Positions 4,942 to 31,901 of a DNA stretch of 64,000 bases are shown here, piece by piece. How positions within the stretch are numbered: the first letter of the stretch is position 1; each line of letters begins with the position of its first letter. A program made the position numbers and the translations under genes. A model generated the notes under the pieces. That model did no database searches. It worked only from the letters and a program-made list of their open reading frames with translations, and was not told the DNA's origin. This stretch comes from Desulfofarcimen acetoxidans DSM 771 (lineage in GTDB: Bacteria > Bacillota > Desulfotomaculia > Desulfotomaculales > Desulfofarciminaceae), in NCBI RefSeq assembly GCF_000024205.1, contig NC_013216.1, positions 2,108,001 through 2,172,000 on the forward strand, in the 5' to 3' direction.

Positions 4942-4965
4942 AACTTTAACTCAATATTAATATGT

Positions 4966-5139
4966 AATTGATCAGATTCCCCGGTTATGTCGGGGATGAA
5001 ACGGGAATTGGGTGTGAATCCCGGACGGTCCGGCCACTGTAAGTGGGGAGCGGTTCCTCCATATGCCACTGGGTTTTGTGCCTGGGAAGGCTGGGAATAC
5101 GCTTTGAGCCATAAGTCAGGAGACCTGCCAGGTTAATTT
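4966..5139 (+). promoter_or_regulatory. Cobalamin riboswitch 1
   Basis: It has the conserved aptamer words GGGTGTGAATCCCGGACGG, CGGCCACTGTAAG, ATGCCACTGGG and AGTCAGGAGACCTGCC in the right order. A strong terminator follows at 5205, so bound cobalamin should stop transcription. The next gene downstream is the response regulator at 5472. Confidence 0.93.
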
Positions 5140-5204
5140 GAATGCTGCCTTCCGAGAAAAGGCCAGGGCTTTATCTAGGACTATTAATACTTATTAATAT
5201 ATTT

Positions 5205-5263: not shown

Positions 5264-5471
5264 CTTTCCCTTTGTGTTAGTTAATTGTGACAGGAAAGGT
5301 GCCGGATATCATAAAAAGCAAACCTGAGAATATGGAAGCAGTATTTACCGGCAGGTATGCTCCGCGTTATAAAAGCAGTACAATTTCAATTATAGAGACT
5401 TACCTGTAGAAGCACTGACTGGGAGGGCCTTCTTTAAAGAAAATTACGGAGAATTTTTGGGGGGGGTATCC

Positions 5472-5855
5472 ATGAGGAATTATGATGTTCTTATCGTTGA
5501 TGATCGGTGCGGAATACGTCGGCTGCTATATGAAGTACTGAATGATGACGGTTATCGTGTAGCAGTTGCTGCCGGGGGGCAAGAGGCCTTAAAAATAGCA
5601 TCTAATTTTAGACCCCGGGTAATTTTACTGGATATTAAAATGCCGGGCATGAGCGGGCTTGAAACGCTTAAGGAACTAAGGAATATTTATAGCGAGTTTG
5701 TTGTTGTGCTTATAACAGCATATGGCAACCAGGAAATATTTGAACAGGCTAAAAAGTTAGATGTGCATCACTATATAAACAAACCTTTTGATTTTGAAGA
5801 AATTAGACTACTAATGAGATTTTTTTTATTGGAGGGGCTGCCGCAATTACCTTAA
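5472..5855 (+). CDS. Spo0F-like single-domain response regulator
   Basis: About 127 residues forming one receiver domain and nothing else. It shows the acidic pair (LIVDD), the phospho-acceptor Asp in LLDIKMPG, the conserved Thr (LITAYG) and Lys (INKPFD). A stand-alone receiver usually relays phosphate within a phosphorelay or sets a partner's activity. ATG 5472 is chosen because a G-rich site lies just upstream; an in-frame TTG at 5457 would overlap it. The gene lies after riboswitch 1, so read-through could make it cobalamin-responsive. Its last three codons fall inside a scrap of DNA homologous to the toroid gene at 7722, so its C-terminus was set by a recombination event. No kinase gene is nearby. 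Confidence 0.85.
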   Translation: MRNYDVLIVDDRCGIRRLLYEVLNDDGYRVAVAAGGQEALKIASNFRPRVILLDIKMPGMSGLETLKELRNIYSEFVVVLITAYGNQEIFEQAKKLDVHHYINKPFDFEEIRLLMRFFLLEGLPQLP

Positions 5856-6077: not shown

Positions 6078-6172
6078 TTATGGAAAATTGCTCCTGAAAG
6101 TCCACAGGCTTGATCCGGAGGAGATTCACTGGATATATGTTAAATAATTAAACAATTAAATAATATGGAACA

Positions 6173-6332
6173 AAACAAGTGCTTATAAGAGAAGCTTAAT
6201 TGGGAAACCGGTGCAAGTCCGGTGCGGTCCCGCCACTGTGAAGGGCAGTAGTCTTACAAGATGTCACTGGGTTTAATAATCCGGGAAGGCGTAAGACAAG
6301 GTTGACCCCTGAGCCAGGAGACCAGCTTGTTT
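6173..6332 (+). promoter_or_regulatory. Cobalamin riboswitch 2
   Basis: The P1 stem AAACAAG (6173-6179) pairs with CTTGTTT (6326-6332). Core words: ACCGGTGCAAGTCCGGTGCGG, CGCCACTGTGAAG, TGTCACTGGG, TGAGCCAGGAGACCAGC. It leads to a terminator at 6431 and then the DUF4430 gene at 6703. It is nearly identical to riboswitch 3 (10902). Confidence 0.95.
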
Positions 6333-6430
6333 GATAGTCGCCGCCAGATACCCACGGAGAATGGGGAGGGGATTAACTGACTCGCGCATGGATTACCATT
6401 TTATGCTTTATAAATGTGGTTGCCTGCTTC

Positions 6431-6458
6431 CCTCTACAATTCGTGTAGAGGTTTTTTT
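6431..6458 (+). terminator. Intrinsic terminator of riboswitch 2
   Basis: CCTCTACA / TGTAGAGG stem with ATTCG loop and seven T. The same hairpin is preserved at 11160. Confidence 0.92.
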
Positions 6459-6702: not shown

Positions 6703-7587
6703 ATGAAATCAGGTAAAATCATGAGTAAAATGATGCTGCTGGGCTTGGTTGTAATGCTTGTCTTAGCCATGTCCGTTCCGGCCTTTGCCCAGGATTACTT
6801 AACCTCGACAAGCGCTTCCTATATCCAGGGCACGGCGCCCATCTATACAGATCAAACGATTAACGTTGATTTGGTAGTGGAAAGCCGGACCATCAGCGGC
6901 AGCTACATTTACACAACCATTAATAATGTTCTATTGACGGCCGGTGAAACCGCCCAGTCCTTCTTTGTTCGGGACGTGCTGCTGGCGGTGCAAGATATGG
7001 GGAACTATACGTTTAACGGTACTGATGGAAATCCCATTGATTCCGGCGACAGTTATTTCTATTCCGTTACCGATGAAAATAGCATTGTGACCTATGGTCC
7101 CACTAGCCAATATGCCTGGGACGGCTGGGTCTTCCGGATCAACAACAAGTTTCCTCTGGAAAGTGCAGGCTTGGGTGCTTCCATCGCCACCGCTTATGTG
7201 ACAGACGGGGATGTAATCAATATCTATCATGACGATGCGAGCAGTTCCACCAGTTGCGCCGATTTTGCCAAAATCGCCAGCATTACCGATAACGACAGCA
7301 ATACCCTGACGGTTAACGTGAAGGCTTCCTGCCAATATTACGGGCCGGCGCCGACCTATACCTGGAATCTGACGAATTTTGCTAATTATCAGGGCGTGAC
7401 GGTCAAAGCCTATAATGAAAGCGGGACTCTTGTGACCAGTGGCACCACCGATTCTTCCGGCAATGTCGATCTCAATGTCGGCAGTTTCGGAAGTCATACC
7501 TATAAGGTGGAAGTAGTACGCACCACCTTTGGCAATGGGCTGATCGAGAATACCACCGATACCGTAACCGGTTACGATCCTATCTAA
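6703..7587 (+). CDS. Small secreted DUF4430 protein
   Basis: 294 residues. The signal peptide spans 1-29 (MKSGKIMSKMMLLGLVVML, cleavage after AFAQ). Residues 30-175 or so form a DUF4430 domain with the telltale WDGWVFRINN and VTDGDVINIYHDD segments, the second being the last strand of the domain. The rest is a beta-rich tail (VTVKAYNESGTLVTSGTTD) like a carboxypeptidase-regulatory-type repeat. It has no dockerin, SLH or sortase signal, so it is either freely secreted or held by a partner. DUF4430 corresponds to the transcobalamin beta domain, and the next gene encodes an alpha-toroid like the other half of transcobalamin, so the pair may work as a split cobalamin binder. The start is supported by TAAGGAGG. 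Expression should be shut off by cobalamin through riboswitch 2. Confidence 0.85.
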   Translation: MKSGKIMSKMMLLGLVVMLVLAMSVPAFAQDYLTSTSASYIQGTAPIYTDQTINVDLVVESRTISGSYIYTTINNVLLTAGETAQSFFVRDVLLAVQDMGNYTFNGTDGNPIDSGDSYFYSVTDENSIVTYGPTSQYAWDGWVFRINNKFPLESAGLGASIATAYVTDGDVINIYHDDASSSTSCADFAKIASITDNDSNTLTVNVKASCQYYGPAPTYTWNLTNFANYQGVTVKAYNESGTLVTSGTTDSSGNVDLNVGSFGSHTYKVEVVRTTFGNGLIENTTDTVTGYDPI

Positions 7588-7603
7588 AGAAGAGGGGTGC
7601 GGA

Positions 7604-7648
7604 AGTGGGCGGTTTGCCAAAAAACCGCCCACTCCCTCTTTTTGTTTT
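7604..7648 (+). terminator. Hairpin/attenuator between DUF4430 and toroid genes
   Basis: 12-bp stem (7604-7615 with 7622-7633) followed by CCCTCTTTTTGTTTT. The paralogous hairpin at 11666 keeps the stem through several compensating base changes. It probably lowers expression of the downstream gene relative to the DUF4430 gene. Confidence 0.8.
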
Positions 7649-7721
7649 AAAGTACAGGGGAAATGGAGGAGGTTAGCGGCTTTTCTTTACAGAATATTTC
7701 TAAGAAGGCGGAGGAAAACAG

Positions 7722-10625
7722 ATGTTGAAATATCACCAGAGGGGACTATTTTTTGCCCTCTTTTGTGCTTTGCTGTTTGTTTTTGCGACCGGCGGCACTG
7801 CGTTAGCCACGGAAGTAGAGGAAGTAAATGGTTTGTATGTAATTGCCACATTGCCGGGAAGCGACACACCCCTTCCGGTTAAGTACTATGGCGATATAGC
7901 GGGTAGTGTTGCTGCTTCTCCTTGCTATATCACGGTGCCGGCGGGGACGACCCAGATTACCATAAAGAAAGATCCAAATTTAAATACAGATTACACTTTT
8001 ACCTCTTTAAGGGTGTATAAGCCGCCCTATAAGGCTGCAGATAAATATCCCCTTGATGCCGGGGCGGAATTTTCCGTAACGGTGCCCGCCACGGCCACCC
8101 GGCAGAATCCTTATCGAATAAACTCTGCTATTAAAAACTCTAACGGTGCTGATACTAGTAATACTATATTTTTCTACTGTGTGGAGGAAAACGGTCCCAA
8201 TCCCTTTGTAACACCGGATCGCCAGGAAGTGGCGGAGGGAAGCACCGTATCTCTGAATGTGTACGGCACCGGGAATCCGGCCCAACCGGTGGAATGGTAT
8301 TACGGCTATTATGATAGTAACTCGTCGACAAGAATTTACGAGAAACTGGAAGGGGAAACCGGCGCCGACCTGAATATCACCGCTGTCCAGGATTCTTTGA
8401 ACCTGGGATCTTTTAACGAGGAAACCAGCCAGTATTCTCTTCGCTTTTACACCAAAATCGGCACATATATCTCCAATGAAGTTTATGTGACAGTGAACGG
8501 AACCCCGGTCTCCAAACCGGATATAAAATCCCTGGATGCCAGTCACTGGGGTAGCTATGCCGGGGCGAAGCTCTGGCTGAATGTGGGAGCCGCCTTTAAC
8601 GATACGGTGGCCGCGGAGACTCCGGTGAAATTCTATCTGACCGCCGCGGAAAACGGCACGCCGGATACGGCTATTGCCGGCACCCTGGTGGAAAGCACTG
8701 TGGCCGCGGTACCCGGCGCCGCTGCCGAGGATTATAAGGATCTGGGTTTTCTGGTGCAGGATCTGCCCGCCGGCAGCTACTGGCTCGCCATCCAGCTGGG
8801 CACGGACAATCCTTCCTACAGCTACAGAGCCTTTACAGTTTATCCGGGCGTGAAGGAATATGTCAAAGCTTCTCTGGACAAAATGATCTCCTGGTATCAA
8901 ACGAAGATATTTGTAAAAGATGGAATTTATGTGGGCCTTTCCGAGCGTAGAGACGGTACGGACTGGGATGCCTGGATCTTTCCCAATTACGGCTATGCCG
9001 TCACCGATCCCCTGCTGGCTGGCGCCGACGGCAAGACCTATTTGGACGGCCTGGAAGCGGCTTTAAAAAGCCGGGACGCCGGCGGTACACTCAATTCGCC
9101 CAAAGACGATTTCCGTTATGTGGCTGCCCTTTGTGCCGTGGGGGCGGACCCCCGGAATTTCAACGGCCGGAATCTGGTGGCGGAGCTGATCGGCCACGCC
9201 TATAACGCGGACGGCACCCTGAAGTTGGGGAAAGACGGCGTGCTGGATCTAAAAATTGATATCCTGACCGTCTCCTATCTCCTCCTGGGGGCGGAAATTG
9301 CCGGGGCCACGGAGGCGGAAGGCTATACCGACGCCCTGAAAAAAGCCGGGATCAAGGCCATTCTGCCCACCGTGGAAATGTCTGTCGATGAGCGCAGTGA
9401 TATCAGTATGATCTCTTCCAGCGACTGGCTGGCCATGCAGAGCTATCCCCTATATTTCCTGCAGGATGATCTGGAATACGGGGATCGCATTAGAGACGCC
9501 GTCGGCAAAATGGCGGCAATGGTATCCACTCATTTATACGCTAACGGCGGCGTAACCATGAACTGGCCCGGGGTGAGCAGCCCGGGATCCTTTGATACCC
9601 CTCTGCCTGCCACGGCTTACGCTGTCAATCCTAACAGCATGGCCGTGATGCTCAATGCCCTGGTCCTCTTCGGCGCCACGGCGGAAGACCTGGGCAGCAA
9701 TGCCTGGCAGGAAGATTGGGGCACTTATATGACCGCCCTTCTGAGCTTGCAGATGGATGACGGCTCCGTGGGCTTCAACGGTGGCAGCAATGACATGGCC
9801 ACCTACCAGACACTGGGGGCCCTGGTGGAACTGCATACGGGCAGGAGCTGCTTTGTTAACGCCCGGGACACCTATCTGAGCAAGTATCCCGATTATGCCG
9901 CCCAGATCACCGCTCCCTTTATTTCCGACGGAAGTGGGGCGCGCTTGTCCGCCGGGGAAGGGAAGGTCACCTTTACCTCCAATGAAGGAGGACAAGCCTA
10001 TTACGCCGTGGTGGACCGCGGGGCCGCCGCTCCCGTCATCGACACCTCCGGAGCGGGAACAGATTGTGTGTCCGGGGTCAATACCATAGTGATCGGGGAT
10101 TTGGTGGATAGCAGCGCCAAAGATGTCTACCTGCTGGTAAAGGACGGAGACGGCCACAGCAGCAAAACCTTGCAGATCAGCATGGCGGATTCCTCCGCGG
10201 ACACCGGAGCACCGGTGATCACCTTAAACGGTGCCTCGGCAATCACCTTAAATCTCGGGGAAAGCTTCACCGATCCGGGAGCGACGGCCACAGACAATGT
10301 GGACGAAGACCTGACGGACCGGATCACCGTAGGCGGAGACACGGTGGATGTCAATACGCCGGGAACCTACACCATCACCTATAATGTCAGCGACGCCGCC
10401 GGCAACTCGGCAGCACAGGTAACCAGAACCGTCACCGTGCAGGGAACAGAAACCGGAGACGGGGATGTAAACCGGGACGGCAAGGTGAATGTGATGGATA
10501 TGATTCTGGTGGGCCAGCATTTCAATGAAAGCGGAGCGGCCGGCTGGATCAGCGCGGATACGAATAAAGACGGGAAGATCGATGTATCGGATTTGATCTT
10601 CATCGGACAGCACTGGAAAGATTAA
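7722..10625 (+). CDS. Secreted alpha/alpha-toroid protein with dockerin (transcobalamin alpha-like)
   Basis: 967 residues. Signal peptide 1-30 (FFALFCALLFVFATGG, cleavage near ALA). Two Ig-like beta domains follow (about 35-160 and 165-260), then a linker beta domain to about 375. Residues 385-726 are all-helical and resemble an alpha/alpha toroid (terpenoid-cyclase/transcobalamin type), with the family-like repeats NPNSMAVMLNALVLFG and LLSLQMDDGSVGFNGG. A beta domain (735-825), a DUF5011-type Ig domain (828-907, ITLNLGESFTDPGA) and a type I dockerin (DVNRDGKVNVMD, DTNKDGKIDVSD) complete it. In transcobalamin this toroid plus a DUF4430-like domain sandwich cobalamin; here the second half may come from the gene at 6703. 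The start has GGCGGAGG upstream. Specificity for a corrinoid is inferred from fold and riboswitch control. Confidence 0.82.
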   Translation: MLKYHQRGLFFALFCALLFVFATGGTALATEVEEVNGLYVIATLPGSDTPLPVKYYGDIAGSVAASPCYITVPAGTTQITIKKDPNLNTDYTFTSLRVYKPPYKAADKYPLDAGAEFSVTVPATATRQNPYRINSAIKNSNGADTSNTIFFYCVEENGPNPFVTPDRQEVAEGSTVSLNVYGTGNPAQPVEWYYGYYDSNSSTRIYEKLEGETGADLNITAVQDSLNLGSFNEETSQYSLRFYTKIGTYISNEVYVTVNGTPVSKPDIKSLDASHWGSYAGAKLWLNVGAAFNDTVAAETPVKFYLTAAENGTPDTAIAGTLVESTVAAVPGAAAEDYKDLGFLVQDLPAGSYWLAIQLGTDNPSYSYRAFTVYPGVKEYVKASLDKMISWYQTKIFVKDGIYVGLSERRDGTDWDAWIFPNYGYAVTDPLLAGADGKTYLDGLEAALKSRDAGGTLNSPKDDFRYVAALCAVGADPRNFNGRNLVAELIGHAYNADGTLKLGKDGVLDLKIDILTVSYLLLGAEIAGATEAEGYTDALKKAGIKAILPTVEMSVDERSDISMISSSDWLAMQSYPLYFLQDDLEYGDRIRDAVGKMAAMVSTHLYANGGVTMNWPGVSSPGSFDTPLPATAYAVNPNSMAVMLNALVLFGATAEDLGSNAWQEDWGTYMTALLSLQMDDGSVGFNGGSNDMATYQTLGALVELHTGRSCFVNARDTYLSKYPDYAAQITAPFISDGSGARLSAGEGKVTFTSNEGGQAYYAVVDRGAAAPVIDTSGAGTDCVSGVNTIVIGDLVDSSAKDVYLLVKDGDGHSSKTLQISMADSSADTGAPVITLNGASAITLNLGESFTDPGATATDNVDEDLTDRITVGGDTVDVNTPGTYTITYNVSDAAGNSAAQVTRTVTVQGTETGDGDVNRDGKVNVMDMILVGQHFNESGAAGWISADTNKDGKIDVSDLIFIGQHWKD

Positions 10626-10876: not shown

Positions 10877-10901
10877 TTAAGTAATTAAATAATATGGAAC
10901 A

Positions 10902-11061
10902 AAACAAGTGCTTATAAGAAAAGCTTAATTGGGAAACCGGTGTAAGTCCGGTGCGGTCCCGCCACTGTAAAGGGTAGTAGTCTTACAAGATGTCACTGGA
11001 TTTAATAATCCGGGAAGGCGTAAGACAATGTTAACCCCTGAGCCAGGAGACCGGCTTGTTT
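10902..11061 (+). promoter_or_regulatory. Cobalamin riboswitch 3
   Basis: P1 AAACAAG (10902-10908) pairs with CTTGTTT (11055-11061). The core is nearly identical to riboswitch 2 (CGCCACTGTAAAG, GAGCCAGGAGACCGGC), with the same length of 160. It heads the duplicated cassette, whose first intact gene is now the toroid gene at 11782. Confidence 0.95.
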
Positions 11062-11159
11062 GATAGTCGCCGCCAGATACCCACGGAGAATGGGGAGGGG
11101 ATTAACTGATTAGTATATGGATTACCATTTTATGCTGTATAAATATGGTTGCCTGCTTC

Positions 11160-11187
11160 CCTCTACAATTCGTGTAGAGGTTTTTTT
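11160..11187 (+). terminator. Intrinsic terminator of riboswitch 3
   Basis: CCTCTACA / TGTAGAGG stem followed by seven T, identical to the terminator at 6431. Confidence 0.92.
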
Positions 11188-11259: not shown

Positions 11260-11446
11260 ATCACATTCAGTTTTACGGTTTGCATCCGGGGCTGAGGGGC
11301 GCCACCCATACGGGGCCAAGCCCTTTTGGCTGCAGGGTGCAATTCTGCTTAGAAAAAAAGGTGGATTTCCACCGTTAGAGAGGTGATGCCTATGATCTAA
11401 GGAATCCAGGCTGTTTGGTTCCCCGAGAGGGAAAATGCGGGTAGAA
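11260..11446 (+). ncRNA. Conserved structured leader of unknown class, copy 2
   Basis: Second copy of the element at 6483. From CTGCAGGGTGCAATTCTGC to the GGTTCCCCGAGAGGG hairpin it is almost unchanged, while the first 60 bases differ in sequence but keep G-rich/C-rich pairing partners. It is kept although the gene it once led (DUF4430 copy 2) has lost its start. Confidence 0.6.
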
Positions 11447-11454
11447 AATTTAAT

Positions 11455-11650
11455 TTAAAATCAGGGTGTGACGGTCAAAGCCTATAATGAAAGCTGGACT
11501 CTTGTGACCAGCGGCACCACCGATTTTTCCGGCAATGTCAGTCTCAATGTCGGCAGTTGCACCTATGAGGTGGAAGTACAACGCACCACCTTTGGCAATG
11601 GGCTGATCGAGAATACCACCGATTTCGTAACCAGTTATGATCCTATCTAA
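11455..11650 (+). pseudogene. 5'-deleted copy of the DUF4430 gene
   Basis: Codes for the last 60 residues of the protein at 6703 (VTVKAYNESWTLVTSGTTD to VTSYDPI) and then stops. The ribosome site, start codon, signal peptide and the whole DUF4430 domain are gone. The junction lies at a short AT-rich word (TAATTTAA joined to AATCAGGG) that occurs near both deletion ends in copy 1. A GTG at 11468 is in frame but has no ribosome site. Confidence 0.85.
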
Positions 11651-11781: not shown

Positions 11782-14409
11782 ATGTTTAGAAATCACCGGA
11801 GGGGGTTATTTTTTGCCCTCCTTTGCGCTTTGTTGTTTGTTTTTGCGGCCGGCGGCACTGCGGTGGCCGCGCAGGCACCGAGTTTATATGCCATTGCCAC
11901 AGTACCTGGAAGCGACACACCCCTTCCGATTGAGTACTATGGCGATAATGCGGGTACTGATGTTAATCCTTACTATATCACGGTGCCGGCGGAGACGGAC
12001 CAGATCACGATCAAGGCAGACCCCAATAAAAAAGTTAATTATAAGTATCTTCATGTAAATGAGGACGGCAATGAATTTGCCCCCGATGCAGGGGCGGAAT
12101 TTTCCGTAACGGTGCCCACCGCGGCCACCCGGTCGAAACCATATGGAGTATCTGTTAGTTATAAATCATCTAGTGGATCACCAGGAAGTAAATCATTTAA
12201 ATTTTACTGCGTGGAGGAAAACGGCCCCAATCCCTTTGTAACGCCGGCTTCCCAGGAACTGGCGGAGGGAAGTACCGTATCTCTGAATGTGTACGGCACC
12301 GGGAATCCGGCCCAACCGGTGGAATGGTATTACGGCTATTATAGTGACAGTAGCTTTTCGACAAGAGTTTACGAGAAACTGGAAGGGGAAAACGGCACCG
12401 ATTTGAATATCGACGCCGCCCGGGATTCTTTGAACCTGGGGTACTTTGACGAGGCATACGCCAAGTATTATCTTAAATTTTACGCCAAAATCGGCACATA
12501 TATTTCCAATGAAGTTTACGTGACAGTGAACGGAACCCCAGTCTCCAAACCGGATATAAAATCCCTGGATGCCAGCCACTGGGGCAGCTATGCCGGGGCG
12601 AAGCTCTGGCTGAATGTGGGGGCCGCCTTCAACGATACGGTGGCCGCGGAGACTCCGGTGAAATTCTATCTGACCGCCGCGGAAAACGGCACGCCGGATA
12701 CGGCTATTGCCGGCACCCTGGTGGAAAGCACTGTGGCCGCGGTACCCGGCGCCGCTGCCGAGGATTATAAGGATCTGGGTTTTCTGGTGCAGGATCTGCC
12801 CGCCGGCAGCTACTGGCTTGCCATCCAGCTGGGCACGGACAATCCTTCCTACAGCTACAGAGCCTTTACAGTTTATCCGGGCGTGAAGGAATATGTCAAA
12901 GCTTCTCTGGACAAAATGATCTCCTGGTATCAAACGAAAAAATTTATAAAAAATGGAATTTATATGGGACTTTCCGATTATAGAGACGGTACGGACTGGG
13001 ATGCCTGGATCTTTCCCAATTACGGCTATGCCGTCACCGATCCCCTGCTGGCCGGTGCCGACGGCAAGACCTACTTGGATGGACTGGAAACGGCTTTAAA
13101 GAGCCGGGCCGCCAGCGGTATGCTCAATTCGCCTAAAGACGATTTCCGTTATGTGGCTGCCCTTTGCGCCGTGGGGGCGGACCCCCGGAATTTCAACGGC
13201 CGGAATCTGGTGGCGGAGCTGATCGGCCACGCCTATAACACGGACGGCACCCTTAAGCTGGGGAAAGACGGTGTGCTGGATATAAAACCCGATATCCTGG
13301 CTACCTCCTATTTCCTTCTGGGGGCGGAAATTGCCGGGGCCACGGAGGCGGAAGGCTATACCGACGCCCTGAAAAAAGCCGGGATCAAGGCCATCCTGCC
13401 CACCGTGGAAATGTCGGTCGATGAGGGCAGCGATATCAGTATGATCGCTTCCAGCGACTGGCTGGCCATGCAGAGCTATCCCCTATATTTCCTGCAGGAT
13501 GATCCGGAATACGGGGATCGCATTAGAGACGCCGTCGGCAAAATGGCGGCAATGGTATCCACTCATTTATACGCTAACGGCGGCGTAACCATGAGCTGGC
13601 CCGGGGTGAGCAGCCCGGGATCCTTTGATACTCCTCTGCCTGCCACGGCTTACGCTGTCAATCCCGACAGCATGGCCGTGATGCTCAATTCCTTGGTCAT
13701 CTTCGGCGCCACGGCGGAAGACCTGGGCAGCAATGCCTGGCAGGAAGATTGGGGCACTTATATGACCGCCCTTCTGAGCTTGCAGATGGATGACGGCTCC
13801 GTGGGCTTCAACGGCGGCAGCAATGACATGGCCACCTACCAGACACTGGGGGCCCTGGTGGAATTGCATACGGGCAGGAGCTGTTTTGTTAACGCCCGGG
13901 ACACCTATCTGAGCAAGTATCCCGATTATGCCGCCCAGATCACCGCTCCCTTTATTTCCGACGGAAGTGGGGCGCGCTTGTCCGCCGGGAAAGGGAAGGT
14001 CACCTTTACCTCCAATGAAGGAGGACAAGCCTATTACGACGTGGTGGACCGCGGGGCCGCCGCTCCCGTCATTGACACCTCCGGAGCGGGAACAGATTGT
14101 GCGGCCGGGGTCAATACCATAGTGATCGGGGATTTGGCGGATAGCAGCGCCAAAGATGTCTACCTGCTGGTAAAAGACGGAGACGGCCACAGCAGCAAAA
14201 CCTTGCAGATCAGCATGGAGGATTCCTCCGCGGACACCGGGGATGGGGATGTAAACCTGGACGGCAAGGTGAATGTGATGGATATGATTCTGGTGGGCCA
14301 GCATTTCAATGAAAGCGGAGCGGCCGGCTGGATCGGCGCGGATACGAATAAAGACGGGGAGATCGATGTATCGGATTTGATCTTCATCGGACAGCACTGG
14401 AAAGATTAA
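11782..14409 (+). CDS. Secreted alpha/alpha-toroid protein with dockerin, paralogue 2
   Basis: 875 residues, paralogue of the protein at 7722. Signal peptide 1-30 (LLCALLFVFAAGGTAVAA), two Ig-like domains, linker domain, toroid at about 373-715 (NPDSMAVMLNSLVIFG, LLSLQMDDGSVGFNGG), beta domain and dockerin (DVNLDGKVNVMD, DTNKDGEIDVSD). It lacks the DUF5011 domain; the deletion joins similar ACACCGG/AACCGGA words. The first 150 residues are clearly diverged from the paralogue (for example around residues 70-130), whereas long stretches after residue 250 are nearly identical at DNA level. Its own upstream DUF4430 partner is broken, so it would need the one from 6703 or the domains carried by the large dockerin proteins. 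Controlled by riboswitch 3. Confidence 0.82.
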   Translation: MFRNHRRGLFFALLCALLFVFAAGGTAVAAQAPSLYAIATVPGSDTPLPIEYYGDNAGTDVNPYYITVPAETDQITIKADPNKKVNYKYLHVNEDGNEFAPDAGAEFSVTVPTAATRSKPYGVSVSYKSSSGSPGSKSFKFYCVEENGPNPFVTPASQELAEGSTVSLNVYGTGNPAQPVEWYYGYYSDSSFSTRVYEKLEGENGTDLNIDAARDSLNLGYFDEAYAKYYLKFYAKIGTYISNEVYVTVNGTPVSKPDIKSLDASHWGSYAGAKLWLNVGAAFNDTVAAETPVKFYLTAAENGTPDTAIAGTLVESTVAAVPGAAAEDYKDLGFLVQDLPAGSYWLAIQLGTDNPSYSYRAFTVYPGVKEYVKASLDKMISWYQTKKFIKNGIYMGLSDYRDGTDWDAWIFPNYGYAVTDPLLAGADGKTYLDGLETALKSRAASGMLNSPKDDFRYVAALCAVGADPRNFNGRNLVAELIGHAYNTDGTLKLGKDGVLDIKPDILATSYFLLGAEIAGATEAEGYTDALKKAGIKAILPTVEMSVDEGSDISMIASSDWLAMQSYPLYFLQDDPEYGDRIRDAVGKMAAMVSTHLYANGGVTMSWPGVSSPGSFDTPLPATAYAVNPDSMAVMLNSLVIFGATAEDLGSNAWQEDWGTYMTALLSLQMDDGSVGFNGGSNDMATYQTLGALVELHTGRSCFVNARDTYLSKYPDYAAQITAPFISDGSGARLSAGKGKVTFTSNEGGQAYYDVVDRGAAAPVIDTSGAGTDCAAGVNTIVIGDLADSSAKDVYLLVKDGDGHSSKTLQISMEDSSADTGDGDVNLDGKVNVMDMILVGQHFNESGAAGWIGADTNKDGEIDVSDLIFIGQHWKD

Positions 14410-15602: not shown

Positions 15603-18600
15603 ATGAGCAGACTGTTAACCGGACAGAGCGGGAGAAATGTCAAAAAAGGCATATCTTTGCTTCTCGCGCTGGTGATGCTGTTGTCTCTGCTGCCTGTGCA
15701 GGTAATTGCTTCAGAAGGGGAGCCGGAACTGACGGCTACGGGCATTAACCTGTCTGAAGGAGTGATTGCGGGACAACCGGCCAGCGTGACCGCTGGGGTC
15801 TACAACACCGGGAATGCAAATGAGGATGAGTTTTCGGGGGTCCTTCATATTGCTGAGCAAGAGACGCCGTATGAAGAGCAGACCGACAGCACAGATGCTA
15901 TAAGTGAAACAGGTGAAAACAATAACGAACAGAATATAGCTGCCAATGTCCTGAAGGAGAGCGGCACAGAGGCACTGGAGCTGGTATCGTTGAGCCCGGC
16001 AAACGGTGCGACGGGAGTGGCGGTCGACGCGCCGCTGACCCTGACCTTCAACCGGCCGGTGGAGGCGAATCCTGATTATTCATCAGGCTATTTAGGCATC
16101 AAGGTGGCTATAATTCAGGAATCGGATGGGGACTGGTACGGGGGAGAAGCTAACGTGCTCAAGTTCAGTACCGAGAATCCTGAACAGGTAACCGTCGATA
16201 TAGCTGACAGTGCTCCGTATGGCGGCGAACTGAAGCCGGGAGAAAGCTACACCGTATACATTGACAATGATTGCATAAGGGCTAAGGATACGGGAGAAAC
16301 ATTTAAAGGTATCATGGGAGGAGCTATGGACCCTGATACCGATATTTGCTGGAGTTTCCGGACGGGAGAAGCACTGAGCGCACGGATCAATGGCGGCGAA
16401 GCTGTGGGAGGAAATTCTTTACAGGCCATTGTCGAGGCGGCAGAAATCAGCCCGGCTGAAGTAACTTCCGTTGAAGTTACGAGGGGGGCTGTGTCTGCGG
16501 ATGATTTGGCCTATATTGAAAGCAGCCTGATCAATCTGGAAACCCTGACCGCGTCTTATACTGTGAATATTAACGACGGGGTATTGCCGGCCGAGGCTTT
16601 TATCATGCACGCCGCATTACGAACCGTGAACCTTCCCTCTGTTGTTTCAATTGGAGAAAATGCATTTGGCTATTGTGGCAATTTAAAAACTGTCAGATTA
16701 AACAACCTGCGCAGCATGGGAGATTATGCATTTACATGCTGTAGTTCACTGGATACACTGGTGGTTCCGAATCTGCAGGATGTGAGCGATTCAGCCTTTT
16801 CGTTATGCTTGTCCCTGGAATATGTTTACATGCCCAAGGCGGTATCCATGTCCGGAATGACCGGTTTCGTCTTATCCGGCTCCCTTGCCGGCGCGTGGTT
16901 CCCCAAGCTGGGCAATATTGCGCCGTATGCGTTTGAAGGAGACACTTCTTTTAGGGAAATGTACCTGGAAACCGCTCCCTTTCATTATTCAGAAGGTCTG
17001 GGAGGTGCCTTTTTGGATCTGCCGGCGGACAGGATCGTATATGTGCCGGAGGATTATGTGGCCGCTTACCTGGGATATGCTGACGACGATCCTGAGGATG
17101 GCAAATGGTACGGCTGGACTGTCAAGTCCTTTGCCGAATCGTCCACTCTGGGAGCTTTTGTTGAAGTATTAATCAATCAACTGCCTGAAAATGACCGGCT
17201 CACTTACGGGGACATCCCCCAGGTGCAATCGCTGAGGGCCGCCTACAATAGGCTGACTGCTGTGCAGCGGGAATCCGTCAGCGGCGCTGTTTATGAGAAA
17301 TTGACAGCGGCGGAAGCAACCTTATTGGGCCAGGGAAATACGATTGTTGAAGGGATAATAAACCGGATCGATGCTTTACCGTCAACGGTCACTATGGAAG
17401 ACAAAGCAGAAATCCGGTCCATTCGCCAGGCTTACGATAACCTGCCGGAAATGTACCGGGAGCTTATAACCAATCTGACGGCATTAATAGCGGCGGAGGA
17501 AGTCATTGCTGAACTGGACATCAAGGATGTGGAACAATTAATTGAACGGCTTCCTTCTGCGGATGAATTAACGCTTGCAAATGAAGCAGACGTGCAGGCC
17601 GCAAGAAGCGCCTATGACGCTTTAATTGCCGGACAGCAGGCATCTGTAAGCAATTATAATGTATTGCTGGCGGCGGAGGATGCCATTGCCCGACTGGGGT
17701 TCAAATCAGTTGAACAATTGATTGAACAGCTTCCTTCTCCGGATGATTTAACGCTTGACAATAAATCTGCCGTACAGGCCGCAAGAAACGCCTATGACGC
17801 TTTAAGCGCCGAACAGCGTGTGGCAGTGGGCAATTATGAGTTGCTGCAGGCGGCGGAAGCTAAAATCTACGATTTGGAGGCGCAAGAAGCGGCCCGGGCG
17901 GTGGACAGCCTGATCGACGAACTGCCGTCTGCCCAGGAGGCGCAAATTGCGGACAAGACGGCGGCATTGGGGGCCCGAGCTGCCTATAATGCCCTTAATG
18001 ATCAGGCTAAAACTTATGTTGCCGCGCTCCAGAAGCTGACTGATGTGCTGGAGGCTATCTCCGGTTTGGAAAGACAAACCCTGAAAGGGGGCGCGGTTAA
18101 CGACAGGATTTCCGCCCTGCCGGCGGTGGAAGCATTGACCCTGACCGATAAAGCAGCCGTTTTGGAAATAAGGGCGGATTATGATGCCTTAACCGAGCAG
18201 GAAAAAGCTTTGGTTACCGCGGACAATTTGAGTAAGCTGCAGGAGGCGGAGGCGAAAATCGCCCGGCTGGAGTCGGAAAATCCGGCCTCCTCTGTCACCG
18301 TTACCATTGAAAAATTCACCCTGGGGCAGGGTTTTGTCCGGAAGCCGGTGCAAGTTTCCATCAATGCCGGGGAAAACGGCGCTGCCGTTGTTACCAGGCT
18401 GCTGGGCATGGGCAATTATACCAATACCGGAAGCATTGACAGTGCCTTTTATCTGGCCAGCATCAAAGACAACGGGTCCGCCCAAGCGGATATTCCGGCA
18501 TATATAATTGATGCCATTACCGCCGGCGAAGGCACGGTGGGCACAAGAGCCAACGCCAATTATCTGGGGGAATTCGACTACTACCATACATCCGGCTGGA

Positions 18601-21600
18601 TGTACACGGTCAATAATATATTGCCCAACTACGGGCTGTCGGATTACATCCCGCAGGACGGAGATGTTTTCAGGCTGCAGTTCACTCTCTACGGCTACGG
18701 CGGGGATTTGGGCTTCGGTGACAACAAGCTCATCGATACGGCGGATAAGGGTGCCCTGATTAAAAAATTGGCGGCCATCGACGCCAGTGAAGACAGGCTG
18801 ACAATGTTAGCCGACCCGGTCTATAAAGGTTATTATGACAAGGCGCTGCTGGTTTTGCAGAACCTGCAGGCCAGCCAGATCCAGGTGGACGCCGCACTGG
18901 CGGATTTGAACACGGCTCCCAATCCTCCCTCCAGCCTGGGTAAGGTTACCGTAACAGTGCGGGATGTTGTTGATAGAAAATGGACAACCTGGAATTATCA
19001 TGGCGGCGAGACGACGGTTGAACAACTCAGCGGCTTGGGTGATTACCAGGAATCCTTCGGCGTGCTGCTGGAGGACGTGGAAGTGTCCATCACCCCCGGG
19101 ATGACAGTGCGCCAGGCCGTTGCAGCGGCGCTCAGGTCACGGGGCTACCAGGTTACCGGCACTCCCACCTATATCAAAGGCATCGGTCCGGTAACCTCAG
19201 ATGATTACACCAGGACGGTGGCGCATCTGTCCGAAAATGATGCCGGAAGCCGGAGCAAGTGGGTGATGAGCCAGAACGACTGGTGCATCTGGGATACTTC
19301 GCAGGCTTACCCGGTCGAGGACGGAGACGTGCTGAAGCTGGAATATTCCGTGGACGGCGGCATCGACATCCATTGCCACCCGGGTTCCGGCAGCTATCTT
19401 ACAGTCAATTTCACCATAGACGGGACAACTTATGATGTTTCTTCTTCCGCCGGATATTATATGGTGCCCGCGGGAACGGAAGAAATCACTGTTTCCGCTG
19501 AACGATTGTTAAGATATGCAGGCAAGGATATCGACCGCTACCTGGTAGTCGAGCTGCAGTCGGAGGGTGTCAGCGTATTAAACAAGCCGGCCACCTTTGC
19601 CGTAAGTGACGGGCAGGTTATCAAGGCTATAATTGACGATCGCTATAACAGTCCCAATACCGATACCAATTCAGGGAAGACATACACATATACTATTGAA
19701 ATCAAGCGCACGCCTGCCCAGGTTGATGCCATGATCGCGGCTATTCCGGGTTTGGAAAATATCGTTTACGCCGATAAAGCTCAGATCGAGAAGGTGCGAC
19801 GGTGTTACAACTATTTGACGGTTGGAGAAAAGACCGGTGTTGCGGGGCTTGCCGTACTTGAGGCAGCGGAGGCGCGGATAACGGCGATTTATGATGTCAA
19901 CAGGGCAGAAGCAAACAGAGTCATTGATTTGATTAAGGTGCTGCCCAATACAATGAAGAATGAAGTTGTTACCCTGGAACACCGGGCGGCTATTGAGTAT
20001 GCCCGGGCCCAATACGAGGCGCTGACAGAGGACCAAAAGGTACTGTGCAGTTCCTGGTTGGGATATATGGAAAGAGCGGAAGCTGCCCTGGCGGAATTGC
20101 TGGATGCGCAGCAGGCCGTGGAAGGAGTGCCCAAGGATTACAGCAAGGATTTCCTGCTCAGCACCATGGCTCTAAATCTCAGCGTGGGTGAGGAAGAAGA
20201 GATGGTGATGTTCGACACGCCCAGGGTGGGGAGTGATAATTGCGCATATAACCTGGACGACTTAATCCTGGAATACTCCGGTCAAGAGGGCGTTTTTGAG
20301 ATAGAAAAGAGGGTTGTCAATAAAGATGGACAGGATCTGACCAAATATTACGTTAAAGGTCTCAGCGATGGAGTGGGGTATTTTACCGTTAAATATCTGG
20401 GCTATTCCGGTCAGATTCCCGTTATACCGGTGTGCGTGCAAGCTTCCGGAAGCCGGAGCCCCGCTCTCAGCACCGATATTGATGAACAGGTGAGCAAATA
20501 CGACACCATGTATTTTACCGAGGAAGAAGGAAGCTATCCCTTCACCTTTACAGCGGAGAGCGAAGACGGTGCCAGCGTGTCCGCCATGGTCTACGGCGTA
20601 ATGTATGAACCGAATGCCGGCGGCGTATTCACCGTACCGCTGCGGGACAGGTACAATCCCATTATCGTGACCGCAGCCAAAGACGGCCAGACCACCTCCA
20701 TTGCCTATGGCATCAGGGCCAAAGTGATTGCTTTAAAAATCACCAATGAATCCAGGGGTGGCAACGTATTTTACCAGGGAGACACCGTCAGCATCGGCTG
20801 TACCGGCGTCATGCTGCCGGTGCCAAAGGTATCCAGAATTTATAACCCGGCTTCTTCGCGCCTGGAATACCATACCGATATGCCCCGTTATGATTTAGTC
20901 GGCTCCAGTTCAAGCCAGTATGCGGCGGGAGCGCTGACTTTTGAACTGACGGGATACGGCGATATTGCTTTAACCGGCGGGCATGTCCATTTGAGCTGGT
21001 TCGGCAGCGGGCTTTATGCCGAAACACCGATAGGTGGGGCTCCGCCCAATCTCAACGCGGATCAGATAGCAAACAATTTTTCCAGCCTGCCGGACATTCG
21101 TCTGACGGTGATCAGAGATCCGTATTATGCGCCTGAGGATGTGCTGTCCGCCGGTATGGTGGGTGCGAGTACGATCCATGCGGGTGATGAAGTGACTGTC
21201 TCCATCCCCGGCATCGACACGGATATGCTTAAAAAGAACCATACCACCAACAGTGGGGAAATTGTGGACCTGTTGGACTCCTACACCGTTTTTGCCACAG
21301 ATATACCCGGACTTAAACAGGTGAAATCGGTCAACGTTAAAACCACGGATCAATTGAAAAACTTGAAGACAATCACCTTTACCGTTCCGGAAAATACCCC
21401 GTCCGGAGATTATAAGCTCAAGGGCGGCTATATCTGGGTTAAATACGGGCCCACCTGGTGGACACATGAAAAAGAATACTATGTGACCAAAATGGAAGAT
21501 GTGGATTTAACGGTAACCGGCGAGACCGGTGCCGGGGATGTAAACCAGGACGGCAAGGTGGATGTGCAGGATATGATTCTGGTGGGCCAGCATTTCAATG

Positions 21601-21698
21601 AAAGGGGAGCGGCCGGCTGGATCAGTGAAGATATAAATAAAGATGGGGAGATCGATGTATTGGATATGATCTTTATAGGACAGCACTGGAAGGATTAA
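15603..21698 (+). CDS. Giant exported protein: Big_5, LRR, helical repeats, two DUF4430, dockerin
   Basis: 2031 residues. Signal peptide 1-37 (KGISLLLALVMLLSLLPVQVIAS). An SbsA-type Ig domain lies at about 122-256 (SPANGATGVAVDAPLTLTF). A BspA-like leucine-rich block covers 310-475 (SIGENAFGYCGNLKTV). Several three-helix repeats of about 60 residues cover 512-894 (VEQLIERLPSADELTL, AAEAKI). DUF4430 domains sit at 896-1039 (SGWMYTVNNILPNYGLSDY) and 1112-1252. Then come a cadherin-like sandwich, two more helical repeats (1368-1500), a 460-residue module shared with the genes at 22388 and 36021 (1513-1970), and a type I dockerin (DVNQDGKVDVQD, DINKDGEIDVLD). Many parts are spacer or adhesin types; the DUF4430 pair is the likely ligand-binding part. 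The start has GGGGGAGAT upstream. Riboswitch 4 controls it. Confidence 0.85.
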   Translation: MSRLLTGQSGRNVKKGISLLLALVMLLSLLPVQVIASEGEPELTATGINLSEGVIAGQPASVTAGVYNTGNANEDEFSGVLHIAEQETPYEEQTDSTDAISETGENNNEQNIAANVLKESGTEALELVSLSPANGATGVAVDAPLTLTFNRPVEANPDYSSGYLGIKVAIIQESDGDWYGGEANVLKFSTENPEQVTVDIADSAPYGGELKPGESYTVYIDNDCIRAKDTGETFKGIMGGAMDPDTDICWSFRTGEALSARINGGEAVGGNSLQAIVEAAEISPAEVTSVEVTRGAVSADDLAYIESSLINLETLTASYTVNINDGVLPAEAFIMHAALRTVNLPSVVSIGENAFGYCGNLKTVRLNNLRSMGDYAFTCCSSLDTLVVPNLQDVSDSAFSLCLSLEYVYMPKAVSMSGMTGFVLSGSLAGAWFPKLGNIAPYAFEGDTSFREMYLETAPFHYSEGLGGAFLDLPADRIVYVPEDYVAAYLGYADDDPEDGKWYGWTVKSFAESSTLGAFVEVLINQLPENDRLTYGDIPQVQSLRAAYNRLTAVQRESVSGAVYEKLTAAEATLLGQGNTIVEGIINRIDALPSTVTMEDKAEIRSIRQAYDNLPEMYRELITNLTALIAAEEVIAELDIKDVEQLIERLPSADELTLANEADVQAARSAYDALIAGQQASVSNYNVLLAAEDAIARLGFKSVEQLIEQLPSPDDLTLDNKSAVQAARNAYDALSAEQRVAVGNYELLQAAEAKIYDLEAQEAARAVDSLIDELPSAQEAQIADKTAALGARAAYNALNDQAKTYVAALQKLTDVLEAISGLERQTLKGGAVNDRISALPAVEALTLTDKAAVLEIRADYDALTEQEKALVTADNLSKLQEAEAKIARLESENPASSVTVTIEKFTLGQGFVRKPVQVSINAGENGAAVVTRLLGMGNYTNTGSIDSAFYLASIKDNGSAQADIPAYIIDAITAGEGTVGTRANANYLGEFDYYHTSGWMYTVNNILPNYGLSDYIPQDGDVFRLQFTLYGYGGDLGFGDNKLIDTADKGALIKKLAAIDASEDRLTMLADPVYKGYYDKALLVLQNLQASQIQVDAALADLNTAPNPPSSLGKVTVTVRDVVDRKWTTWNYHGGETTVEQLSGLGDYQESFGVLLEDVEVSITPGMTVRQAVAAALRSRGYQVTGTPTYIKGIGPVTSDDYTRTVAHLSENDAGSRSKWVMSQNDWCIWDTSQAYPVEDGDVLKLEYSVDGGIDIHCHPGSGSYLTVNFTIDGTTYDVSSSAGYYMVPAGTEEITVSAERLLRYAGKDIDRYLVVELQSEGVSVLNKPATFAVSDGQVIKAIIDDRYNSPNTDTNSGKTYTYTIEIKRTPAQVDAMIAAIPGLENIVYADKAQIEKVRRCYNYLTVGEKTGVAGLAVLEAAEARITAIYDVNRAEANRVIDLIKVLPNTMKNEVVTLEHRAAIEYARAQYEALTEDQKVLCSSWLGYMERAEAALAELLDAQQAVEGVPKDYSKDFLLSTMALNLSVGEEEEMVMFDTPRVGSDNCAYNLDDLILEYSGQEGVFEIEKRVVNKDGQDLTKYYVKGLSDGVGYFTVKYLGYSGQIPVIPVCVQASGSRSPALSTDIDEQVSKYDTMYFTEEEGSYPFTFTAESEDGASVSAMVYGVMYEPNAGGVFTVPLRDRYNPIIVTAAKDGQTTSIAYGIRAKVIALKITNESRGGNVFYQGDTVSIGCTGVMLPVPKVSRIYNPASSRLEYHTDMPRYDLVGSSSSQYAAGALTFELTGYGDIALTGGHVHLSWFGSGLYAETPIGGAPPNLNADQIANNFSSLPDIRLTVIRDPYYAPEDVLSAGMVGASTIHAGDEVTVSIPGIDTDMLKKNHTTNSGEIVDLLDSYTVFATDIPGLKQVKSVNVKTTDQLKNLKTITFTVPENTPSGDYKLKGGYIWVKYGPTWWTHEKEYYVTKMEDVDLTVTGETGAGDVNQDGKVDVQDMILVGQHFNERGAAGWISEDINKDGEIDVLDMIFIGQHWKD

Positions 21699-22236: not shown

Positions 22237-22387
22237 TGTTGGTTGATAGATATAACACCAAACATTTAAAGAGAGGGGGGATTAAACAGAAGATTCTAAA
22301 AAAGTGTTATCTTACAACTGACAGTAGGCAAGATATTTTTGCCATTCTCAAAGTACTGAGGCTGAAATTAAAGGAAAGGAGTTGTTT

Positions 22388-25300
22388 TTGAAAATATTGA
22401 AGAAATCGAAAATAATAAATATACTACTGGTTTTGCTTATGCTGTTTACGATAGTTAATCCCGCGCTGGCGGCAGGATTAACTATCAATCCCGATCAGCC
22501 TGCGTACAGCGGCGGGGAAAATGCCGCAGTTGCGGCGTCTGTCTATGACGACGGCACGAATGCAGCCGGCGGCACAGACGGGAGTTCCGCCGCTGAAAGC
22601 GAGGACAACCGTGAAATTGCGGAGGATAATGAGTCCGCCGGTGTCACCGAGCCCCAAAACAACTCTGACCAAACTGTGAGCAATTTGGTTTATCCCGCCA
22701 ATGATACCGAAAAGCAGGCGGCAAGCCCGGCTATCGTGCTCAATGAGGTAAGTCCGGACTTGGGAACAGTTAAAGTCCGGGTAATGGATAATGTGCAAAG
22801 ACTGGCGGGGGATATGCCAAATATTTCTCCCGCATACCGGGAGCCCTTTGGCGAAATACTGCCGTGGACTGAAGTGAAAATTACCGGAGGACTTACTATT
22901 CGGGGTGCCCTGGAAAAGGCTCTGGCCGCCAAAGGCATAACCGCTTACGGGGCCGAGAGTTACCTGAGCGGAATAGGTCCTGTTATCTCCGAGGATGGCA
23001 GCAGAACCGTTGACAAGCTTTCCGAGTTTAGCAGCGGCAATAAGAGCGGCTGGATGGTCACCCTGAACGATTGGTTTATCAATGCCGGGGCCAATACCTT
23101 TATGGTTAAAGACGGCGATATAATAGAATGGTGTTATACCTGCGATCTGGGAGCCGACTTGGGCGCCGATTTTAACAACAACGACACTGCCTTAAAAGCA
23201 CTTTCGGCGGACAAAGGAATTTTTACCCCGGTATTTGCGCCGCAGGTCAAAGAATATACATTGACCCTGCCGGCTGAAACACAGATTAAGGTTGCCCCTA
23301 CCGCTGCAAACCGTTATAATCAGGTAACCATTCAGTCAAACAATGCAACCTACCGCAGTACAGACGAGATTGCCGTGGTCGATAACCAGGTGATATCCGT
23401 TACCTGCGGCAAAAACATCTATAGAATAACCGTAGTCATTTCAAATAACGACCAGAGCAACGCCAATGCAGTCATTGATTTAATAGGGGCGCTTCCGGCT
23501 GTTGATGATATTGATCTGTCGGACAGAGAACAGATAGAAGCGATACGCACGGCCTATGAAAATTTGACAGATACGCAAAAAGCGCTGGTTGCCAATTATT
23601 CCGTACTGATAGAAGCAGAAAGCAAAATAGCCCAAATCGATGGAGATAACAAAACGGCGGCTGATCATGTTATTGCTTTAATCACCGCGCTGCCCGCCGT
23701 TAATGCCATTACTCTGGCGGACAAGGAACAGGTGGCAGCCGCCCGAACCGCTTATAACTCTTTAAGGGAAGAACAAAAAGCTTTGGTGGATAACCTGGAC
23801 GCACTGACGGCGGCGGAAGCCAAAATTGCCTCCCTTGAGAATACCGGCGGCAGTGTGGTACAGAATTATCCCGATGATTTCTTGCTCAGTGCCCTTAACC
23901 TGGAAATGGAGAAAGGGGAAAGAAAAGAACTCGTCGTGCTGGATACCCCCAGAGTTGGTTTGGATGATCAGGCCTTTAACAGAGATGATTTAATTTTTTC
24001 TGTTAATAATCTGTCGGTGGCGGGAGCGGTTTATGATGATGTTGTCGCCGTGGAGAAAGAAAATTCAGATGGCAGCAAAAAAGGGACAAGATATTATGTC
24101 AAAGGCTTGAATGAAGGTGTAGCTCAAATAAAGGTCACCTATCCCGGGTATAGGGGGCAGGATACCGTTGTTGCCGTGAATGTGAAAAAACTGTCTGCCG
24201 CCGGGCCTGAACTGACAACAGACATAGCTTTAACCAAATACGACATTCTTTATTTTATCGGAGACAGTCTGGACTATACTTTTAATGTCAGCACAGATTC
24301 TGATGCCTCGGTTGCTGCCAGTGTATACGGGCAGGAGTATGCGGCACAGGCGGGCAAAATTACGGTGAGGTTAAAAGACGGCTATAATCCCATTGTCGTT
24401 ACCGCCGGCAATGCCGGTGGCACAACAACAAAGGTCTTTAACATTCGGGCCAAAAAAATGGCAATACAAATGGAAAATTTAACTCGAACTGGGTCAGCGG
24501 ATATGTATGAAGGGGATATCATTCAAATTTCATACTCGGGACTGGTAACTCCGGTTCCCAAGGTTTCCCGGATTTATAACCCGGCGGCCGTGGGTGTTTC
24601 CCACTCCTGTAAAATGCCGCGCTATTCCATTGTTTCCGGGAGCTTCTCCCAGTACGATCTTGCTACTTCCAACGGTATCCGGATGGAATTGACCGGAGCG
24701 GGTGAATTTATGTTAACCGACGGTCATATAGACGAAAACTGGTTTGGTGACGGTCTCTATAGCGAAGCTCCGGTGGGAACCGCTCCCCCGGTTACAGGCG
24801 CCGGCCAGACAGACCACAGGTTTTCCGTGCTTCCGGACATTCGTCTTACCGTGAAAGAAAATGCGGAATATAATCCTCAATTGTTTACGGTTAATTTAGA
24901 AAATACGGAGGGTATCTGGCCGGGTGATGAAGTTAAAATTAATATTCCCGATCTGGATATCCAAACACTGGCCGCAAACCATCCTAAGGCCGATGAGGAG
25001 TGGATGACTCAAGAAATAATTAATTCCTACACCGCCTTTAACACTAATATTCCCGGATTGAATACGGTAAAGTCAGAAAGTGTAAAAATTATTGAGGATT
25101 TAGAGAAGCTAAAAACAGTCAAGTTTATTGTTCCTAAAGATACCAGACCGGGTATTTATAATTTAACAGGCGGCTATGTCTGGGTTAAATACGGACCCGC
25201 CTGGTGGACAAAACAAAAAAATTATTTCATTACGGAAATCCCGGATATTTCTATTGAAGTAAAAGAAGGGGTTCCGGGTGCCGAACACGGGACTATAGTT

Positions 25301-31283: not shown

Positions 31284-31303
31284 ATAGCTAATTAAATAAT
31301 GTA

Positions 31304-31475
31304 GTTAATCAGGTGCCCCGGCCATGCCGGGGGTGAAAAGGGAACCGGGTGTAAGTCCCGGACGGTCCGGCCACTGTAAGTGGGGAGCGGTTTTCCAAAT
31401 GCCACTGGGTTTTTTGAATCTGGGAAGGCTGGAAATGCGCTGTGAGCCACAAGTCAGGAGACCTGCCTGGTTAAT
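31304..31475 (+). promoter_or_regulatory. Cobalamin riboswitch 6
   Basis: P1 TTAATCAGG (31305-31313) pairs with CCTGGTTAA (31466-31474). Core words GGGTGTAAGTCCCGGACGG, CGGCCACTGTAAGTGG, TGCCACTGGG and AAGTCAGGAGACCTGCC. No gene follows directly: after the terminator come a structured RNA and then a nitrilase-type gene behind two more terminators. Its present target is unclear. Confidence 0.94.
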
Positions 31476-31556
31476 CTAAGTGCCGCCTTCCGTGAAAAGG
31501 CCAGGGCTTTGTTTTAGTTCATTAATTTGAATTTTTAAAATGTTTTCATTTTAAAA

Positions 31557-31592
31557 AACCCCGGCTTCTTTACGAAGAAGTTGGGGTTTTTT
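31557..31592 (+). terminator. Intrinsic terminator of riboswitch 6
   Basis: AACCCCGGCTTCTT / AAGAAGTTGGGGTT stem followed by TTTTTT. Confidence 0.92.
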
Positions 31593-31621
31593 ATTAGGAA
31601 GTAAACTTATCTACTATGATT

Positions 31622-31801
31622 AGTAGATGCCCCTGAACCGGGCCAAGGCTGTGGCAGCACAGTGCTGTAGCTCATGAGAGAGTGTAAGTTCCTGCTTTGC
31701 CAGGGCAGTTCTCAATGAAATGAGAAACCTCTCGGGCAGAAGCCTCTCAGGCTTTCCCGGAGGAGGTTCGTATAGCTCCCCATTTTCCGTCTACTTTTTT
31801 T
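31622..31801 (+). ncRNA. Structured RNA candidate of unknown class
   Basis: About 175 bases closed by AGTAGA (31622-31627) and TCTACT (31790-31795) and followed by seven T. Inside are CAGCA-CAG-TGCTG, TTCTCA-ATGAAA-TGAGAA and a long arm AACCTC...CGGG...AGCC-TCTCA-GGCT...CCCG...GAGGTT. The 5' side has CCCCTGAACCGGGCCAAGG. A second TCTACT (31610-31615) just upstream can pair with the same AGTAGA, so two exclusive folds are possible. There is no open frame. The size and the terminator at the 3' end suit an abundant stand-alone RNA; raiA-type and 6S-type RNAs are candidates that I cannot confirm. Confidence 0.65.
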
Positions 31802-31818
31802 GTTAATTAACCTTTTGC

Positions 31819-31860
31819 CACATAGGAGTTGGTAATTGCTCCTATGTGGGTTTCTTTTTT
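31819..31860 (+). terminator. Intrinsic terminator
   Basis: CACATAGGAG / CTCCTATGTG stem then GGTTTCTTTTTT, 18 bases after the structured RNA. Confidence 0.85.
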
Positions 31861-31901
31861 GAGATAATTGCAACTATTAAGAAAAGCTGATTGAAAATCT
31901 G

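Follow-up and report, generated by a model that had tools for sequence, protein, structure and literature searches.

Transcobalamin and intrinsic factor bind cobalamin between an alpha6/alpha6 barrel and a beta-domain (PMC6257451). After cleavage of intrinsic factor the fragments IF30 and IF20 still bind cyanocobalamin (CNCbl) tightly, as a two-chain IF30.Cbl.IF20 complex (PMC6257451), and since the cleaved carrier retains its ligand in this form, a naturally split transcobalamin is plausible. In Gram-positive bacteria the capture of vitamin B12 ahead of the transporters is poorly known; the surface B12 binders BtuG and BtuH are from Bacteroides, and BtuG is a surface beta-propeller with femtomolar B12 binding (PMC6143338). 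Here we describe two adjacent genes of Desulfofarcimen acetoxidans DSM 771, encoding a secreted DUF4430-like protein and a secreted toroid protein with a dockerin, which lie in a stretch of 64,000 nucleotides analysed as a whole (hereafter the window; positions 2108001-2172000 of the single-contig 4.55 Mb genome, NC_013216.1). That the two proteins correspond to a transcobalamin-like module pair and belong together is well supported by comparison with related genomes, and the view that they are a variant of this pair split into separate secreted chains is supported in part. We consider it the most likely reading, held at about even odds, that they jointly constitute a surface-anchored protein of two chains which captures corrinoids (B12) and is made from the two transcobalamin modules.

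The DUF4430-like protein, the toroid-dockerin protein and their riboswitch

The open reading frames at 6703-7587 and 7722-10625 are located on the same (+) strand, with the DUF4430-like gene directly upstream of the toroid gene and a gap of 134 bp between them. The first encodes a protein of 294 amino acids with a signal peptide, a DUF4430 core and a C-terminal immunoglobulin (Ig)/CarboxypepD-like domain, in which no anchor was seen. The product of the second (967 amino acids) contains an Ig-like N-terminal part, an alpha/alpha toroid (about 8829-9890), an Ig domain and a type I dockerin (10461-10601, genome 2118461-2118601; Pfam Dockerin_1, 37.7 bits with a cut-off of 22.9). Both signal peptides are of the Sec type and were read by eye, without a predictor.

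The DUF4430-like protein displays the core motif of the family (GWVFRINNKFP ... VTDGDVINIYHDD), and its comparison by hhalign with a profile of 32 bacterial DUF4430 domains gave 87% (E 4e-6), with only 38 columns aligned. The beta-domain of human transcobalamin, a protein that matches PF14478 at 25.0 bits, served as positive control and scored 51% (E 1.5e-4) against the same profile, while four cross-comparisons of unrelated pairs, used as negative controls, all remained below 1%. Based on these profiles, the product of 6703-7587 was taken to be a divergent member of the DUF4430 family, with the proviso that the alignment covers 38 columns only and that a direct comparison with the transcobalamin domain yields no match. 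Its C-terminal part resembles bMG3/CarboxypepD-like Ig domains, and the single weak match produced by phmmer against the PDB, to alpha-2-macroglobulin, fell in this domain.

Pfam does not call the toroid, and its assignment is based on a profile-profile comparison with bacterial DUF4430-linked toroids (98.7%, E 3e-16, 287 columns) and on a whole-genome hidden Markov model search in which an alignment excluding the window toroid still recovered it at E 3.4e-9. The same toroid yielded no match with phmmer against the PDB, and Pfam detected no DUF4430 in the 967-residue protein at E<=0.1. The preliminary description of this DNA, made from the sequence alone, had proposed a small secreted DUF4430 protein lacking a toroid followed by a secreted toroid protein lacking DUF4430 and ending in a dockerin, and these results bear out both assignments.

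A cobalamin riboswitch aptamer precedes the two genes at 6160-6344 (+; Rfam RF00174, 128.8 bits, full model) and is followed at 6431-6451 (+) by a terminator-like hairpin with a T7 tract (fold z -3.1), which probably represents the expression platform or terminator of an OFF switch. This leader is part of a larger duplication, as the riboswitch-DUF4430-toroid unit occurs in tandem with a leader 93% identical between the copies and an identical hairpin at 11160-11180. The second copy comprises a riboswitch at 10889-11073 (+; RF00174, 127.6 bits), a remnant of the DUF4430 gene at 11423-11647 (+; the C-terminal 78 amino acids, 75% identical, about 700 bp having been deleted) and a second toroid-dockerin protein of 875 amino acids at 11782-14409 (+), the toroid domain of which is 94% identical to that of copy 1. 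The reading frame of this second toroid protein is open, and the ratio of nonsynonymous to synonymous substitutions (dN/dS) between the two toroid domains is 0.30. Genes for EcfT and EcfA do not directly follow the window pair, the next elements being the second riboswitch and toroid copy, and an energy-coupling factor (ECF) module is found about 13 kb upstream of the pair, adjoining another DUF4430 gene.

Fused and adjacent relatives of the pair

The evidence that the two modules belong together includes their distribution in the class, for which 113 genomes were analysed. Toroid and DUF4430 were found on one chain 42 times, in 40 of these genomes, and at 20 loci a DUF4430 gene lies immediately upstream of a toroid gene (the domains being less than 800 bp apart). 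In 28 genomes a fused chain coexists with a separate toroid located within 6 kb of DUF4430. DUF4430 is encoded in every one of the 37 genomes that gave a strong toroid match, compared with 62 of the 113 genomes overall (Fisher p 2e-13, or 2e-8 when collapsed to genera, both values being inflated by the relatedness of the genomes and by the use of DUF4430-linked toroids to construct the toroid profile). A cobalamin riboswitch was detected upstream in 15 of the 19 split loci fetched, the remaining four being truncated by contig ends. The usual order at these loci is riboswitch, fused toroid-DUF4430-SLH protein, DUF4430, toroid, EcfT and EcfA, and D. acetoxidans itself has a second cobalamin locus (L011:4534-13358, genome 574534-583358) with an SLH-anchored toroid-DUF4430 chain, DUF4430, toroid, EcfT and EcfA.

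A scan of genome contigs for relatives of the window pair returned one locus, L042, in the metagenome-assembled genome nzgw226, where the riboswitch, a DUF4430 gene (69% identity) and a toroid-dockerin gene (53%) are arranged as in the window; scans of viral contigs returned no relatives. Compared with this locus, the DUF4430 gene and the toroid domain of the window are under similar purifying selection, with dN/dS of 0.22 and 0.20, respectively. In addition, the genome G091 encodes a single chain (L062:129-3248) in which DUF4430, CarboxypepD-like, toroid, Ig and dockerin domains succeed one another as they do in the two window genes; two cohesin proteins and two propellers with dockerins are encoded next to it downstream. 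Judged by its domains, this chain comes closest to a fusion of the two window genes.

A further homologous locus, L040 in genome G108, has kept the riboswitch and DUF4430, with a close homologue of the toroid protein that is rearranged into two pieces. These pieces (G108:C38, 14234-18179) are in swapped order and on the strand opposite to the DUF4430 gene, as a result of either a rearrangement or an assembly error, and the C-terminal piece ends in the possible start of a DUF4430-like domain. The locus may represent a toroid-DUF4430 fusion, a reading that was not adopted as the contig looks rearranged there.

A proposed two-chain corrinoid clamp and its alternatives

As a two-chain capture protein the pair could operate in the following way. 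When cobalamin is scarce the riboswitch, identified by a covariance model, would permit transcription, an OFF logic suggested by the terminator hairpin, and both proteins would be exported by means of their signal peptides. Judging from the domain content and from the fused relatives, the corrinoid site would be made up of a beta-type half from the DUF4430 protein and an alpha-type half from the toroid protein, and the two chains would clamp the ligand between them in the manner of cleaved intrinsic factor. Through its dockerin the toroid protein would tether the complex to an SLH-cohesin scaffold at the cell wall, from where the corrinoid would be passed to a transporter, for which the ECF module of the same gene cluster, with its S component, is a candidate. 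A candidate surface anchor for the dockerin proteins is encoded at 29705-31225 (+), a protein with three SLH domains and a cohesin (Pfam, 47.2 bits), which is one of two SLH-cohesin proteins of the genome. The co-occurrence of a type I dockerin and SLH-cohesin proteins in the same genome fits the earlier suggestion that the pair could be anchored, the docking itself being deduced from the domains.

Several observations weigh against this reading. The claim that the two proteins are halves of transcobalamin is well supported with regard to module correspondence, given the 42 single chains, the 20 adjacent pairs, the L062 chain and the L042 unit, but not with regard to the ancestry of the toroid: the bacterial toroid profile matched the alpha-domain of human transcobalamin at only 13.7% (E 0.002), around a shared VDT/VDS stretch, and direct profile comparison of the window proteins with the human transcobalamin domains gave less than 1%, so that common descent of the toroid with the alpha-domain is not shown by any demonstrable sequence homology. 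PF14478 (DUF4430) is below the Pfam cut-off in the product of 6703-7587, and the homologue at L040 reaches 17.2 bits for a cut-off of 23.8. AlphaFold models of the DUF4430 protein and the toroid offered no usable fold, with predicted local distance difference test (pLDDT) values of 40 and 37 from alignments of two and three sequences, respectively. Several DUF4430 proteins of the gene cluster lack a toroid, so that DUF4430 may act alone. The second toroid copy persists although its own DUF4430 gene has been deleted; this and the excess of DUF4430 domains over toroids in the cluster weaken a strict one-to-one complex. The second copy could share the DUF4430 protein of copy 1 or could have no need of it. 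Finally, the two genes are separated by a strong terminator-like hairpin at 7604-7633 (+; 12 pairs, T-rich tail, fold z -4.0), and a similar hairpin at this intergenic site is present also in copy 2 and in L042. The proposal that both genes are under one riboswitch is hence correct by position, but is qualified by this intervening element, which may set the abundance of the DUF4430 protein above that of the toroid protein or, alternatively, could end most transcripts.

The last three of these observations speak for the alternative that the two products are independent corrinoid-scavenging surface proteins, co-regulated as neighbours without a shared site, and the report of a DUF4430 protein gene in the neighbourhood of rtpR in Lactobacillus rhamnosus (PMC9963975) points in the same direction. 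This explanation, which we consider somewhat unlikely though worth serious attention, has difficulty in accounting for the fact that exactly these two modules are repeatedly fused and repeatedly adjacent in the class, for the L062 protein, which unites the domains of both genes in one chain without a change of order, and for the restriction of the toroid to genomes where DUF4430 is present.

It is less probable still, and in our opinion rather improbable, that the toroid (and DUF4430) bind a ligand other than a corrinoid, such as a polysaccharide, a surface partner or a terpenoid, with cobalamin regulation serving a B12-dependent lifestyle. The toroid fold is common to squalene-hopene cyclases and prenyltransferases, bacterial ECF-linked toroids give Pfam matches to Prenyltrans and SQHop_cyclase, the presence of dockerins is reminiscent of cellulosomes, and corrinoid binding by the pair is putative. 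On the other hand, these genes are found in the company of cobalamin riboswitches, ECF modules and a cob(I)alamin adenosyltransferase, the window toroid matches no cyclase family in Pfam, and the acid motif of the cyclases, DXDD, is missing, being replaced by DVDST or DVDMT in most ECF-linked toroids and by SSDWLAMQSY in the window toroids. A function as squalene cyclase was set aside on account of the missing motif. Lastly, decay of the window pair into a non-functional family member, to which the deleted DUF4430 duplicate, the divergent DUF4430 domain and the broken or rearranged toroid in G108 might point, is very hard to reconcile with two open genes that retain signal peptides and show a dN/dS of about 0.2 against L042.

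The cobalamin riboswitch cluster and comparison with known systems

The pair is embedded in a cluster of cohesin, dockerin and riboswitch elements (genome 2078120-2150484, that is, window positions 1-42511 and the sequence upstream, L009 and L010). All cohesin domains (5/5) and dockerins (9/9) of the genome are contained in the 67 kb between 2.083 and 2.151 Mb, and 13 of its 21 cobalamin riboswitches fall between 2.078 and 2.151 Mb. Among the further products of the cluster are an SLH scaffoldin with four cohesins (L009:10156-15621), a cob(I)alamin adenosyltransferase, an ECF T/A module together with an S component, which adjoins a DUF4430 protein, and leucine-rich repeat (LRR) proteins with a dockerin, two of which also have DUF4430. 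Altogether it resembles a cellulosome-like gene cluster under B12 control, the likeness being in assembly logic and not in cargo. As six other cohesin regions of the class (L064-L069) are devoid of cobalamin riboswitches, cohesins are not linked to B12 in the class in general. In the open-licence literature no account of such a cluster was found and none connecting cohesin/dockerin with cobalamin riboswitches, and DUF4430 and cobalamin are associated in bacteria only in passing mentions.

A number of neighbouring genes deserve mention. Dockerin-bearing pyrroloquinoline quinone (PQQ)-type beta-propellers (or propellers with DUF4430 plus SLH) are encoded at L009:7860-9314, L009:15721-17400, L010:4739-7384 and L010:1509-4538, and propellers with dockerins were found again in two other genomes (L062:6036-10255, L063:112-1080); it is possible that those of the cluster are functional analogues of the B12-binding propeller BtuG. 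The LRR proteins are giant secreted BspA-type proteins with a dockerin (window 15603-21698, 22382-29566 and 37313-42511) and apparently belong to the same B12-regulated surface set. At 31294-33703 a cobalamin riboswitch precedes a tandem double carbon-nitrogen hydrolase gene (578 amino acids, no signal peptide seen), an unusual cargo for this riboswitch, the product of which possibly acts on corrinoid side-chain amides. Another cobalamin riboswitch (4957-5146) is followed on the same strand by a stand-alone response-regulator receiver gene (5457-5855).

With regard to the cluster as a whole, it can be tentatively hypothesized, at somewhat less than even confidence, that it specifies a cellulosome-like surface B12 machine in which SLH-cohesin scaffolds carry dockerin-tagged, cobalamin-repressed corrinoid binders, including a split transcobalamin, the halves of which close up only in the presence of the ligand. 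If the two-chain reading of the pair is correct, the transcobalamin clamp can exist in two parts with a dockerin as tether, cohesin-dockerin assembly extends from the digestion of plant fibre to the capture of a vitamin, the window pair provides a defined two-gene system for testing the bacterial use of this clamp, and the origin of animal B12 carriers becomes testable.

Among the described systems, BtuG of Bacteroides likewise captures B12 at the surface ahead of a transporter, but it has an unrelated fold and is an outer-membrane lipoprotein. The cellulosome shares with the cluster the logic of cohesin-dockerin assembly and SLH anchoring and differs from it in that here cobalamin riboswitches are present and the scan of dockerin proteins yielded no glycoside hydrolase domain. 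Closer to the window pair are the bacterial toroid-DUF4430-SLH chains and the adjacent DUF4430/toroid genes beside EcfT-EcfA (e.g., L011:4935-10685), with a homologous toroid, DUF4430 and a cobalamin riboswitch; these are anchored by SLH or by an N-terminal membrane segment and adjoin transporter genes, whereas the window pair is divergent, bears a dockerin and is part of a cluster of cohesin and dockerin genes. L062:129-3248 has the domains and order of the pair, the dockerin and neighbouring cohesin proteins, although in one chain instead of two and at a locus truncated by the contig end. Mammalian transcobalamin, intrinsic factor and haptocorrin (PDB 2BB5, 2PMV) combine the same module types, a helical toroid and DUF4430; transcobalamin carries its alpha and beta modules in one chain, whereas in the window they correspond to two separately encoded bacterial proteins, with a dockerin and a riboswitch. 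Intrinsic factor, once cleaved, works as two chains (PMC6257451).

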